Below are positions 16,780 through 20,474 of a stretch of DNA of 24,310 bases, piece by piece. Numbering within the stretch: the stretch's first letter is position 1; every line of letters begins with the position of its first letter. Below the pieces are notes generated by a model. The model made no database searches, was not told the DNA's origin, and saw only the letters and a program-made list of their open reading frames with translations. A program made the translations under genes and the position numbers. This DNA comes from a virus: IMG/VR virus record IMGVR_UViG_3300009785_000091, positions 1-24,310 of that record; one strand, given 5' to 3'.

Positions 16780-16802
16780 AATTTGTTTTTTATTTTATAT
16801 AG

Positions 16803-16845
16803 TTATAGGCCACCTTTCAGCAGCCTATTACTATAAAGGTGACTA
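16803..16845 (-). promoter_or_regulatory. Two mutually exclusive RNA hairpins after the 281 aa gene
   Basis: In the minus-strand transcript CACCUUU (16841-16835) can pair with AAAGGUG (16817-16811). Adding a U-G and a G-C pair extends this to 9 bp, starting at the last base of the TAG stop. Between these arms AUAGGC (16828-16823) can pair with GCCUAU (16810-16805). The arms interleave, and the strands AAAGGUG and GCCUAU touch with no linker, so both stems cannot form fully at once. No run of U follows, so it is not a clear terminator. It lies ahead of the 248 aa connector gene and could set RNA processing, partial termination or translation. Confidence 0.45.
16822..16834 (-). repeat. 13-base repeat, copy 1 (ATAGTAATAGGCT)
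   Basis: The minus-strand sequence ATAGTAATAGGCT occurs here and again at 17739-17727 as ATAGTAACAGGCT, matching at 12 of 13 positions. This copy is 43 bases upstream of the ATG of the 248 aa gene. Its partner is 39 bases upstream of the 281 aa gene. Similar spacing ahead of two start codons suggests a shared regulatory site or the remnant of a duplication. This copy overlaps one arm of the hairpin pair. Confidence 0.5.
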
Positions 16846-17688
16846 ATTTAGTCTTTTTTCTATTGCCTTGTATATTTCCATACCTTCGTCTGTTCTAAAG
16901 AATGCAGACAAAGCAAAGTAAGGGTGCTCGTCAAATGGCACTGTCATTACTTTTCTACCGGTATTTCCGTATGTAAAGGTTCTTTGATCTTGTGATAAAC
17001 TTAATATACCCATTTCAACAGCCTTTGCTCCGAAACTTCTTAATTGTGTATTTTCATCTGTAGCTAATTGCAAGAATAAATTCGGATTCTTTTTAGCAAA
17101 AATCAATACGTCTCTTTTAATTTCAGAAGATGAAAGCTCTGTTACTGCGGCTCCCATTTCAACGCGTAAGATAGCCTCTGCTTCGTCAACAGATAAACTC
17201 TTAGCTAAATTCAATGATTGTAATTCAAATTCAATCCAGTCAACTTCATTGCTTGCTTGCTGTGCTGGTTTGTATTCTTCGTATATGTAAGATTTTAAAG
17301 CTGGATGATACAAAGACAAAAGCTTTTGCAATGCAACGTTTTCTTTTGGAACATTAAGTTTGCCATCTCTGAATACGATGCGCCCCATAACTACCTGTCC
17401 TTGTTGTTCGTCTACAAAACAAGATCGTTGGTTAGTAGCGTATCTTAATTCTCTTTGGTATCCTAGCTTTTCGTCAAAATACAATAAACTTTTTTTCCCA
17501 CTATGTGATGTAGGTAATGTGAAAACAAGGGGTTTTGTTCTTGTTAGTTCGTATAAACGATCCTTAACTACCCACTCATCTTTTTTTGGTGCCTCTTTTT
17601 TAGGCGTTTCTACTTTAGGTTGTACTATTGTTTCAACCACTTCCTGAGGAGCAACCTCAACTTTTTTTGCTGTAGCTTTTTTAGCCAT
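16843..17688 (-). CDS. Unrecognised structural-module protein, 281 aa
   Basis: I do not recognise this protein. The first 45 residues are low complexity, rich in Lys, Ala, Pro, Glu and Val (KKEAPKKDEWVVKD near 31-44), and look disordered. The rest is a mixed alpha/beta domain: a KPLVFTLPTSHSGKKSLLYF segment near 53-72, a beta region with RELRYATNQRSCFV, a helical middle with Leu/Glu repeats (about 155-215), and a compact end with PFDEHPYFALSAFFRTDEGM near 252-271. There is no membrane span. The gene is set apart from its neighbours: a strong terminator and a 133-base gap lie upstream, and a hairpin pair and a 63-base gap lie downstream. It ends in TAG, as the capsid gene does. The position after the capsid gene suggests a head decoration, auxiliary or head-closure protein, but nothing in the sequence proves this. 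Confidence 0.75.
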   Translation of the reverse strand: MAKKATAKKVEVAPQEVVETIVQPKVETPKKEAPKKDEWVVKDRLYELTRTKPLVFTLPTSHSGKKSLLYFDEKLGYQRELRYATNQRSCFVDEQQGQVVMGRIVFRDGKLNVPKENVALQKLLSLYHPALKSYIYEEYKPAQQASNEVDWIEFELQSLNLAKSLSVDEAEAILRVEMGAAVTELSSSEIKRDVLIFAKKNPNLFLQLATDENTQLRSFGAKAVEMGILSLSQDQRTFTYGNTGRKVMTVPFDEHPYFALSAFFRTDEGMEIYKAIEKRLN

Positions 17689-17726
17689 AATATAATATAA
17701 TATAAATGTTAATAATCTATGACGAT

Positions 17727-17739
17727 AGCCTGTTACTAT
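17727..17739 (-). repeat. 13-base repeat, copy 2 (ATAGTAACAGGCT)
   Basis: This is the second copy of the element at 16834-16822, with 12 of 13 bases identical on the minus strand. It lies 39 bases upstream of the 281 aa gene, between the capsid terminator and that gene. The core AATAGTAACA (17740-17731) is found exactly once more in the gaps I read, at 20467-20458, upstream of the scaffold-like gene. A phage promoter or regulator site is possible. Confidence 0.5.
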
Positions 17740-17763
17740 TTAATATAACTACCTACTGTCACT

Positions 17764-17811
17764 AATAAAAGTAATAACTACCCCCGTAGATTCAACGAGG
17801 GTAATCATTAC
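17764..17811 (-). terminator. Strong intrinsic terminator after the capsid gene
   Basis: In the minus-strand RNA GUAAUGAUUACCCUCG (17811-17796) pairs along its whole length with CGGGGGUAGUUAUUAC (17786-17771). This gives a 16-bp stem with three G-U wobbles and a 9-base loop, followed directly by UUUUAUU. It starts 11 bases after the capsid TAG stop. The wobbles pair only in the minus-strand RNA, so the structure is directional. It probably separates abundant capsid mRNA from the downstream genes. Confidence 0.88.
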
Positions 17812-17821
17812 AATAAACTTA

Positions 17822-19276
17822 CTAGATTGTATTTTTTAGTAATACAAAATTGTTAGCTGCTTGAGTACATAAAGTTCTTTCCGATAGGAAGTGAACATTC
17901 ATTGCATCTTCATCACTGGTGTAGTTTCCTCCAACTGATCCAGTTACCCAAGATTTCAAACGTCTGTCATCAGCTTCTGAAGCTCTATAACGGATGTGTA
18001 AGAAAGGTCGTGAGATATTCTGTCCTAATTGTTGGTCGTATACAGTAGATGTTCCAGCAGGAACAATTACTCCAGATATATCCGAAATAAGTCCACGAGT
18101 TGTAGAATCATTTAAGTATTTCCAGTCAGTTTTGTAGAAATCGTAAGATCCTCTACGGAATCCTGAGAATCCTAAGTTGAGTGCCATTTCTTCTGAATTT
18201 TCGAATACACCATAAGATGTTCCTCCAGCTCCATAAGAATTTTGTTGCGCTAGCATATTGTCAATCTCCAAAGAAGTAGAGCGATCTAAGAACATCATGT
18301 TCTCTTCGATAGCCCCTTGCTTATCTAGTTCTTGCAATATAGTATCAAACGCTCCAAGTCCTGCTGTAGGAGAAGTTGGCCCGTCAAAGTTAGCATCGTT
18401 GAATACTAATCCTCTTGTTTCTAGTGCGTCAAATAAACCTTGCATACCAGTAATAGTTGCTGTAGACGCGTCGGTAATAGTACCTTGAGCATCAGTGGCT
18501 TCAACCATAGACATTTCTAAGTAATCCTCAAAACGAATACGAGACTCGTGTTCAGACTTTAGATACCATAAGTATCCTCCAGTTCCAATTTCAGTAGTAA
18601 CTTCAACCCATCCAATTTGAGCAACATCTGATCCGTTAACGGCATACTTGTCTCTTAAAATGATTGGCTTGTTACTGAAAGTAGTAAAAGAAGCGTCAAC
18701 TGAATTACCAGCTAAACTAGATCCTTTTCCATACTCAGAACCATATACAAATAAGCTAACACCTGTTTGCGAAAATAGACCAGTTGGTAATTGTCCAGTG
18801 GTAGTATCGTATACTACAATGTTATACACTTGGTTACCCGCTACAATAGCACCTAAAGATACTACAAAAGCTTTTGCTGTTATATTGCCTTTAGATATCA
18901 CAATTGTCATATTAGGTCCTAGTAAAGGAGCTTTTATAATTGGTGGGCCAGCTGCTGCTGCTGGTAATGAAATTGTTTTTTCTGCTGCTGCTCCAGTGAT
19001 TGCAGTGTCATAAGCAATGTGTAATCTTCCTTGTTCTGACCAAACTACTTGATCCGACGCCATAGGCATCTCAGCTCCGACCATACGTAAAAATCCTGTG
19101 ATTGTTCTGTTTCCATAACGCTCGATTTCTTTTTCGTATACCTCAGGTAAAAATTGTTGTGTAAAATCCATGTCCGCTAAAGATAGGTAGTTGTCTCCAA
19201 ACAAACCTTTTATTGGACGTGGTGTTAAATGCGCTAAATTGGCTAATGTAGCCGGCGCGGTTGCAAATCCTGCCAT
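17822..19276 (-). CDS. Major capsid protein, 484 aa
   Basis: This forms the icosahedral shell. It sits after the portal and a scaffold-like gene, the usual place for the capsid gene. At 484 residues it is in the size range of large HK97-fold capsid proteins of crAss-like and related podoviruses. The N-terminus has HLTPRPIKGLFGDNYLSLAD (about 16-35), then a helix with FLPEVYEKEIERYGNRTITG (about 42-61), an N-arm and long-helix pattern I associate with these capsids. The centre (about 90-220) is beta-rich with Gly/Thr loops. A helical region near 250-330 holds QELDKQGAIEENMMFLDRST, followed by a Gly-rich turn. There is no visible protease prosequence. The codons and composition are more regular than in the neighbours, as expected for a highly expressed gene. 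The ATG at 19276 follows an A-rich leader (AACAAAAATT), and a terminator follows the TAG stop. Confidence 0.88.
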   Translation of the reverse strand: MAGFATAPATLANLAHLTPRPIKGLFGDNYLSLADMDFTQQFLPEVYEKEIERYGNRTITGFLRMVGAEMPMASDQVVWSEQGRLHIAYDTAITGAAAEKTISLPAAAAGPPIIKAPLLGPNMTIVISKGNITAKAFVVSLGAIVAGNQVYNIVVYDTTTGQLPTGLFSQTGVSLFVYGSEYGKGSSLAGNSVDASFTTFSNKPIILRDKYAVNGSDVAQIGWVEVTTEIGTGGYLWYLKSEHESRIRFEDYLEMSMVEATDAQGTITDASTATITGMQGLFDALETRGLVFNDANFDGPTSPTAGLGAFDTILQELDKQGAIEENMMFLDRSTSLEIDNMLAQQNSYGAGGTSYGVFENSEEMALNLGFSGFRRGSYDFYKTDWKYLNDSTTRGLISDISGVIVPAGTSTVYDQQLGQNISRPFLHIRYRASEADDRRLKSWVTGSVGGNYTSDEDAMNVHFLSERTLCTQAANNFVLLKNTI

Positions 19277-19284
19277 AATTTTTG

Positions 19285-20436
19285 TTATTTAATGTGTTTA
19301 AATGTTTTAATTTTCAATTTTGAATCACTTCCCCCAGAATCAACAGATCTTACTGCCCATCCATTCGATGTTTTAACGTCTTCGTGAACACCCCTAGCGC
19401 CCATTTGTACGTTTTTCGAATTAGACATACTTGTTTTCATTGCATCGGCTTTGCCTTGCTCATAAAAATGATTTGCAATAGAATCTGCATTCATAGCTGT
19501 AAACAGTCCCTTGTGGTACCCCGCTGCGTCTGACATTTGATTATCTTTATCCAAGAACTTCTTGACAAAATTATTAATGTCGCTTTGGGTTTCCTTAATA
19601 GTAGGAGCGTCTTTAACTTTAAAACGGAATTTCTTGTCGCCAACTTGATAATCAAAACCTTTGAAATCATTATTGAAAACACCTTCTGTTTTATTTAAAA
19701 ACGTTTGTGATTGTTTTTCAGCTAATTGAGTTGCTGCTTCGTTTTCTTTTGTATAGCGATTGAAAAACTCTACCGCTTTCTTTTGTTCAGGCGCTAATCT
19801 AGCACCTCCACGAATTTCTTCGTAATATTTATCTTTTAATCCAGTGAGATGATTTCTAGCTTTTGCTAACTCTTCTCTCCTGGCTAATTTTTTTCTTTTT
19901 ATATCTCGTTCCTCATCTATATCTTCATCATAAAGAAAGTTATCTTCCATTAAGAACTCAATGTCCTCTTGATCCAAATGAGGCTTTGTATCTGCGTAAT
20001 ATTCTTTAAGCAATTGCTCAGGATTAAGCTCTTCGTAATTTTGATTAAGCTTAACGTAATCCTCTAGTGACCCGCTGGTTTCATTCATAAAGTCTACAAC
20101 CTTTTGAATATTCTCAGGTAATTCAACACCCAAGTCCGCTTTAACTATAGCTTGTTCAACTTGTTCGGTAAGCTCTTCTACTTGCTCTATAACCTCTTCT
20201 TCTGTTATTTCTTCTAGGATAGTCTCTTCAACAACTGCTTCCGGAGCAGGCTCTAGGGGTGTCTCCACATTAGGTTGTTCTATAACAGGTTGCTCTGCAG
20301 GAGCTTCGGCCTCGGCTGCCGCAAACTTGCCCATATCTAATTTTATTGTGCCGTCGTCACTAACTGACATTGGGCTCGTATCCTCAACCGCAACTTCCGC
20401 TGCTGTCTGTTCTACAATTTCTTGATTTTCTTCCAT
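19285..20436 (-). CDS. Putative scaffolding protein, 383 aa
   Basis: The first 115 residues are strongly acidic and low complexity (Glu, Val, Ala, Pro; for example LEEITEEEVIEQVEELTEQV near 73-92). The middle (about 120-330) is charged and mostly helical, with clusters such as DEERDIKRKKLARREELAKA that look like coiled coil. The end is basic (SKLKIKTFKHIK). An acidic, helical protein with a basic C-terminal tail, encoded 8 bases before the capsid gene and after the portal, is the classic profile of a phage scaffold, whose basic tail binds the inner capsid surface. That is inference from composition and position, because scaffold sequences diverge quickly. An inner head protein is the main alternative. 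The ATG at 20436 follows an A/T-only leader (AATATTTTATC). Confidence 0.8.
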   Translation of the reverse strand: MEENQEIVEQTAAEVAVEDTSPMSVSDDGTIKLDMGKFAAAEAEAPAEQPVIEQPNVETPLEPAPEAVVEETILEEITEEEVIEQVEELTEQVEQAIVKADLGVELPENIQKVVDFMNETSGSLEDYVKLNQNYEELNPEQLLKEYYADTKPHLDQEDIEFLMEDNFLYDEDIDEERDIKRKKLARREELAKARNHLTGLKDKYYEEIRGGARLAPEQKKAVEFFNRYTKENEAATQLAEKQSQTFLNKTEGVFNNDFKGFDYQVGDKKFRFKVKDAPTIKETQSDINNFVKKFLDKDNQMSDAAGYHKGLFTAMNADSIANHFYEQGKADAMKTSMSNSKNVQMGARGVHEDVKTSNGWAVRSVDSGGSDSKLKIKTFKHIK

Positions 20437-20474
20437 GATAAAATATTATATAATTATTGTTACTATTATTATTA
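20437..20474 (-). other. A/T-only gap with a run of in-frame stop codons after the portal
   Basis: Directly after the portal TAA (20477-20475) the same frame reads TAA TAA TAA TAG TAA, formed by a short TAA repeat. The gap also contains AATAGTAACA (20467-20458), which is identical to the core of the repeated element at 17740-17731. The rest is A/T only and serves as leader for the scaffold-like gene. No hairpin terminator is present. Confidence 0.55.

Follow-up and report, generated by a model that had tools for sequence, protein, structure and literature searches.

A terminator-like hairpin behind the capsid gene of an uncultured marine phage family, with its neighbouring leader and palindrome

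A strong hairpin that lies directly behind a capsid gene, within a block of genes read from one strand, raises the question of whether the capsid message ends there and how the gene behind it is then expressed. The window analysed here is a whole virus record of 24,310 bases with one minus-strand gene block, in the order terminase large subunit, portal, 383-aa gene, capsid gene, 281-aa gene and further virion structural proteins. The phage family to which it belongs is uncultured and marine, and the phage collection searched contains no cultured member. The closest named phages are ctfjg026, Maribacter phage Panino, the Flavobacterium 'elemo' phages, and the Cellulophaga phages of the Pervagoviridae and Pachyviridae, all of them with less than 60% identity in the capsid protein; in the isolate Cellulophaga phage Calle_1, the capsid homologue is annotated as structural protein / major capsid protein. 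A fold search with the 281-aa protein (model mean pLDDT 74) gave no PDB match at E ≤ 0.001. The features around the hairpin are as follows.

19285–20436, minus strand: 383-aa gene, which opens the capsid unit; scaffold-like by position only, with no family match
17822–19276, minus strand: capsid gene, 484 aa (phrog_13704, head and packaging)
17771–17811, minus strand: hairpin 1, with a 17-bp stem and a 7-nt loop; proposed intrinsic terminator and 3' end of the capsid unit (folding and conservation)
17761–17770, minus strand: U-rich tail UUUUAUUAGU of hairpin 1, the last base of which overlaps the palindrome described below
16843–17688, minus strand: 281-aa gene, downstream of the hairpin (phrog_34748)

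The minus-strand RNA from 17811 to 17771 forms a single hairpin, the stem of which contains 6 G-C, 8 A-U and 3 G-U pairs, and the minimum free energy for positions 17755–17820 (66 nt) is −24.2 kcal/mol. This fold is far better than expected from composition (z = −5.0, with 0 of 200 shuffles equally good) and ranks first in stability among 16,176 segments of 46 nt taken from both strands, so that the hairpin of the original prediction is real, with a stem of 17 bp instead of the 16 bp first given. The plus-strand RNA across the same site reaches only −12.5 kcal/mol (z = −2.9), in agreement with the earlier claim that the three G-U wobbles make the stem strand-specific. Between 8000 and 24310, no other terminator-like site on the minus strand has more than 6 pairs; hairpin 1 begins 10 nt past the capsid stop codon (17822–17824) and is separated from the ATG of the 281-aa gene by 82 nt. 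An Rfam search of the window gave zero matches. AT-rich sequence yields some hairpins by itself, as illustrated by 15 terminator-like sites compared with 10.7 in shuffles; however, a chance structure is a vanishingly improbable account of hairpin 1 in view of the shuffles and the rank, and conservation in relatives already refutes it.

Such conservation had been proposed as a check, and it is found in every set of genomes compared. The first set comprises the best 80 of at least 600 capsid candidates from viral contigs; one of these, L069, ends before the gap and is dropped, so that script counts of 80 denote 79 relatives and the window. With a threshold of −10 kcal/mol or lower and a distance of at most 85 nt from the capsid stop, 79 of these 80 pass, and the script erred on the exception, L030, which does have a strong stem. 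All 79 relatives whose sequence extends into the gap have a post-capsid hairpin, 78 of them recognised by the script and L030 by eye, and the hairpins on the script's list comprise 62 distinct sequences. In 74 of the 80, window included, folding favours the coding strand by a margin of at least 2 kcal/mol; it favours the opposite strand in one. The second set comprises 73 distinct gaps: 43 come from palindrome-bearing loci, and the other 30 from records that a palindrome search followed by a capsid search had turned up. Here a hairpin follows the capsid gene in 66; the coding strand gives the better fold in 56 and the opposite strand in 2. In six of the seven exceptions, a gene of 91–139 aa lies directly after the capsid gene and the hairpin is situated behind that gene, and therefore what the hairpin delimits is the capsid unit and not the capsid gene as such; in the seventh, L266, the contig ends inside this extra gene. 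The extra gene between capsid gene and hairpin (L107, L173, L180, L183, L265 and L277) possibly encodes a decoration protein. Among isolates, the post-capsid hairpin exists in 8/8 records, several of them near-identical, with different GC-rich stems and long U-runs.

Most relatives possess one dominant stem type, CCCUCG...CGGGGG, which varies modestly across 31 distinct 41-nt stems. Covariation inside this class is weak: 93% of cells are paired compared with 90% in column shuffles, and 3 of the 17 pairs are changed on both sides. Wholly unrelated stems occupy the same place in L022, L041, L055, L072, L077 and L079–L081. This wholesale replacement is stronger evidence than the covariation that the structure is kept rather than the sequence.

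The tail of hairpin 1, UUUUAUUA, contains 6 U in its first 8 nt. Across the family, the tails average 4.99 U in 8 nt, whereas the leader lying beyond them averages 2.58; at least 5 of the 8 are U in 55 of 79 tails. The U run that had been noted behind the stem is thus present, but interrupted: the family U-tract is moderate and broken by A or C, whereas the isolates carry strong, long U-runs. Hairpin 1 combines the features of an intrinsic terminator, namely a G+C-containing stem-loop on the coding strand, a U-rich tract and a conserved position behind the stop codon; the long U-runs at the homologous place in isolates make termination the likely shared role. We therefore consider it reasonably probable that hairpin 1 is an intrinsic terminator, probably an incomplete one, which closes the message of the 383-aa and capsid genes, and that the 281-aa gene starts from its own leader. 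RNA polymerase would halt at hairpin 1 in a factor-independent manner, with some of it reading through, and the hairpin would set the 3' end of the message carrying both genes; the expression of the 281-aa gene would begin afresh at a short AT-rich leader, the same one that opens the capsid unit, and this leader may act as a promoter, possibly one that the phage-encoded sigma factor recognises. We infer all of these functional steps, from the polymerase stop and the read-through to the promoter, and the capsid shell protein is probably transcribed as a separate unit. Against this explanation stand the interrupted, moderate U-tract of the window's clade and the weak covariation of the stem.

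The hairpin itself is ordinary because terminators after capsid genes are already known. In Elemovirus, Callevirus, Maribacter phage Panino, ctfjg026 and Pachyviridae isolates, a hairpin with a U-run is situated at the same position behind a homologous capsid gene; these isolates differ from the window's family in the length of the U-runs and in the host-type TAnnTTTG boxes within the gaps of this region. In T7, Tphi is the only terminator for T7 polymerase and is located right after gene 10 and, like hairpin 1, it directly follows the capsid gene, splits the late block and would favour capsid mRNA (PMC5592923, available text). Hairpin 1 may thus be a close functional analogue of Tphi, but there are differences between the two systems. 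T7 utilizes a single-subunit RNA polymerase, whereas PF00940 was found in 0 of 16 records here, in a search whose control also matched 0 of 14 genomes, so that it does not establish absence. Furthermore, T7 genes 11 and 12 depend on read-through according to the same available text, whereas a leader of its own precedes the 281-aa gene.

The original view of a continuous late block split after the capsid gene agrees with the position of hairpin 1, but must be extended by a second hairpin behind the 281-aa gene.

16798–16835, minus strand: hairpin 2, after the 281-aa gene; conserved, with an A-rich tail and no U-run

Hairpin 2 is kept in 65/65 sequences, window included, and is directional on the coding strand in 63 of them, with an A-rich tail containing a median of 2 U in 8. 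It is equally directional without a U-run, and therefore the wobbles need not serve the directionality of termination; another effect of the G-U wobbles would be to prevent a long perfect palindrome in the DNA. The lack of a U-run at hairpin 2 suggests that the family keeps hairpins for something besides U-run termination. A corresponding alternative is that hairpin 1 is an mRNA 3'-stabilising or processing structure, in which case a long late transcript would be cut or trimmed at both hairpins and the 281-aa message isolated. The two hairpins do flank this one gene, hairpin 2 is as strong and directional as hairpin 1 in spite of its A-rich tail, and the tail of hairpin 1 is only moderate. However, the tail of hairpin 1 is U-rich, isolates carry U-run terminators after the capsid gene, and three of them (L082, L084 and L085) also have one at the place of hairpin 2; in addition, the 281-aa gene is preceded by a leader of its own. 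We regard processing as unlikely and retain the incomplete terminator as the preferred reading.

How the 281-aa gene is started then depends on this leader, which emerged from a comparison of the aligned starts of seven block genes in relatives.

20434–20449, minus strand: leader motif WTWWTATYWTATYATG, copy 1, ending in the ATG of the 383-aa gene (start alignment and pattern scan)
17686–17701, minus strand: leader motif, copy 2, ending in the ATG of the 281-aa gene; proposed start signal after hairpin 1 (start alignment and pattern scan)

A strongly conserved non-coding leader exists at only two of the seven starts, those of the 383-aa and 281-aa genes, with the ATG-anchored consensus WTWWTATYWTATY-ATG; the portal, capsid and 248-aa genes have A-rich leaders instead. 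A weight-matrix scan of all pieces of G010, of part of G009 and of the window returns only these two starts in each. Of 26 records, window included, 23 contain exactly two copies of the 16-nt leader with its ATG, while its reversed pattern, the control, occurs in none of the 26; the exceptions are G002, a double-length record with four copies, G003 with one copy and G012 with none. By coordinate comparison, the pairs lie on either side of the capsid gene. Among the isolates, a single leader match was found across 8 records. Furthermore, the leader carries an A at −3, and in F. johnsoniae an A at −3 favours initiation (PMC6847099, available text).

Of the separate promoter originally proposed for the 281-aa gene, the dedicated start signal is confirmed in the form of this ATG-anchored leader, which, judged by sequence, may be a promoter or a translation signal. 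For the controlled antitermination named as its alternative, the analysis turned up no evidence, and none against it. The TAnnTTTG box, the Bacteroidetes housekeeping promoter, is absent upstream of the 281-aa gene in the window gap. In the gaps of this region it occurs 15 times in the isolates compared with 1.8 in shuffled sequence; in the family genomes, the counts are 5 compared with 1.7 for G010, and 2 compared with 1.9 for G009. Three isolates (L082, L084 and L088) have the box between the post-capsid hairpin and the next ATG. An arrangement as in T7, with a leaky terminator, expression of the 281-aa gene solely by read-through and the shared leader as a translation-initiation signal, appears rather unlikely to us. 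It is consistent with T7 genes 11 and 12, which rely wholly on read-through of Tphi (PMC5592923, available text), with the fixed position of the leader relative to the ATG, as expected of a translation signal, and with the rarity of 5' UTRs shorter than 10 nt in Bacteroides, about 3.7% (PMC7366714, available text). Nevertheless, the leader is confined to the 383-aa and 281-aa starts and does not occur at the five other block starts compared, and the TAnnTTTG box is situated at this very place in the three isolate records.

Under the preferred reading, with the leader as a promoter, a phage-encoded sigma factor becomes relevant. T4-like phages read their late promoters with a phage sigma factor, and these promoters consist of a short AT-rich element without a conserved upstream hexamer. 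The family leader is likewise short and AT-rich with no conserved upstream hexamer, and a sigma factor is encoded; unlike the late promoters of T4-like phages, it abuts the ATG and has only two copies in each genome. The sigma gene is located beside a gene for a helix-turn-helix (HTH) protein.

L244:948–1706 and L244:1738–2367, minus strand: sigma-70-like gene adjoining the HTH gene; the ATG of the HTH gene lies inside a palindrome copy

The sigma-70-like protein has 253 aa with Pfam regions 2 and 4. Its gene is present in 21 of 25 family records, a set outside which the 24-kb window lies, the four misses being records of 43–57 kb; the HTH gene is likewise present in 21 of 25. In tblastn searches, neither protein has a relative in Flavobacterium and Cellulophaga phages, and the sigma protein gives only two matches, both in Acinetobacter phage records, at 24% identity. 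The presence of the sigma gene and its restricted relatives fit a promoter read by a phage sigma factor, although they do not prove it; in G012, the sigma and HTH genes are present and the leader match is absent. The HTH protein has 206–211 aa and matches PF08279 at its cut-off, and a fold search with the 210-aa protein (model mean pLDDT 65) gave no PDB match at E ≤ 0.001.

The remaining element of the gap is situated between the U-tract and the leader.

17720–17761, strand not assigned: 42-bp imperfect palindrome TGACnnTAG...CTAnnGTCA, a family-specific dispersed element and proposed regulator site (pattern searches)

The palindrome follows the capsid gene in 10 of 80 loci chosen by capsid similarity, in two orientations. 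The strict pattern occurs in at least 120 stretches of viral contigs compared with only 4 in genome_contigs, which argues against an ordinary bacterial repeat. A looser pattern gives 1–6 copies in 15 of 16 records, with none for the reversed control; since most of the 16 were picked as carriers of the strict pattern, this fraction is not a frequency, and the two that were not so picked, L071 and L022, have 1 and 0 sites. The consensus letters TGAC, TAG and TTACTA were set in advance by the pattern of the initial search. Of 49 records that bear the element, 40 contain a terminase related to that of the window (73–94% identical). On a capsid tree of 153 rows, a set enriched in carriers, the post-capsid palindrome requires 12 changes, at least 9 of them by well-supported branches. 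In the isolates, the pattern has 2 matches, one sequence common to two elemo records and unlike the element.

Other copies (L091, L110, L132, L160 and L244–L254) were also observed. Copies elsewhere are situated in a divergent control region just before a rightward operon, or across the start codon of the 206–211-aa HTH gene adjoining the sigma gene. Among 12 HTH proteins, 11 starts are inside the palindrome and one is 15 nt beyond; by eye, however, the palindrome lies at the HTH start in only 7 of the 15 records that have both. The palindrome may be a regulator site, possibly of the HTH protein.

Several other roles were considered for the palindrome and rejected. A T7-like RNA polymerase as its reader finds no counterpart in the PF00940 search given above, the control of which was silent. 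For a tyrosine recombinase site, PF00589 was found in 0/16 records, with the control matched in 14/14. Against an RNA hairpin or terminator, the folding energies of 12 copies are moderate whichever strand is taken (−4 to −17 kcal/mol). For an insertion with target duplication, a flanking TTATTA repeat is seen by eye in the window but not in L054.

Joining these parts, we put forward tentatively, as a possible reading only, a late-control system in which the capsid unit is closed by a terminator and flanked by two near-identical promoters that abut the starts and are read by the sigma factor to give nearly leaderless messages, and the HTH protein binds the palindrome. The palindrome would then overlap the HTH start codon in part of the genomes and occupy the divergent control region; certain lineages would also have it between the capsid terminator and the gene that follows, a place where it would have been repeatedly gained or lost in either orientation. 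Two features of this locus go beyond the ordinary: the leader that two genes share and that is found twice in each genome, and the palindrome peculiar to the family. The hairpin leads to a compact, family-wide regulatory set, in which terminator, leader and palindrome are joined by an HTH protein paired with a sigma factor, and late-gene control is therefore directly testable by reporters. In the open-access literature, a limited keyword search over titles and the beginnings of abstracts returned nothing on the palindrome, the leader or the family, which does not prove their absence from it.

Further observations concern the capsid genes and the rightward operon. Capsid matches in L282, L284 and G029:C1:9756–11201 contain one in-frame stop codon, TAA or TAG. 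In L244, L245, L248 and L252, a conserved GTAATCATAC is followed by GTATG over the start codon of the first rightward ORF, and by eye this GTAATCATAC-GTATG element is located approximately 40 nt past the palindrome. The rightward operon behind the palindrome differs between phages in its first long gene, which encodes a GroEL-like chaperonin in one record (L249:2089–3654) and a collagen-like tail fibre in another (L245:2947–4059).
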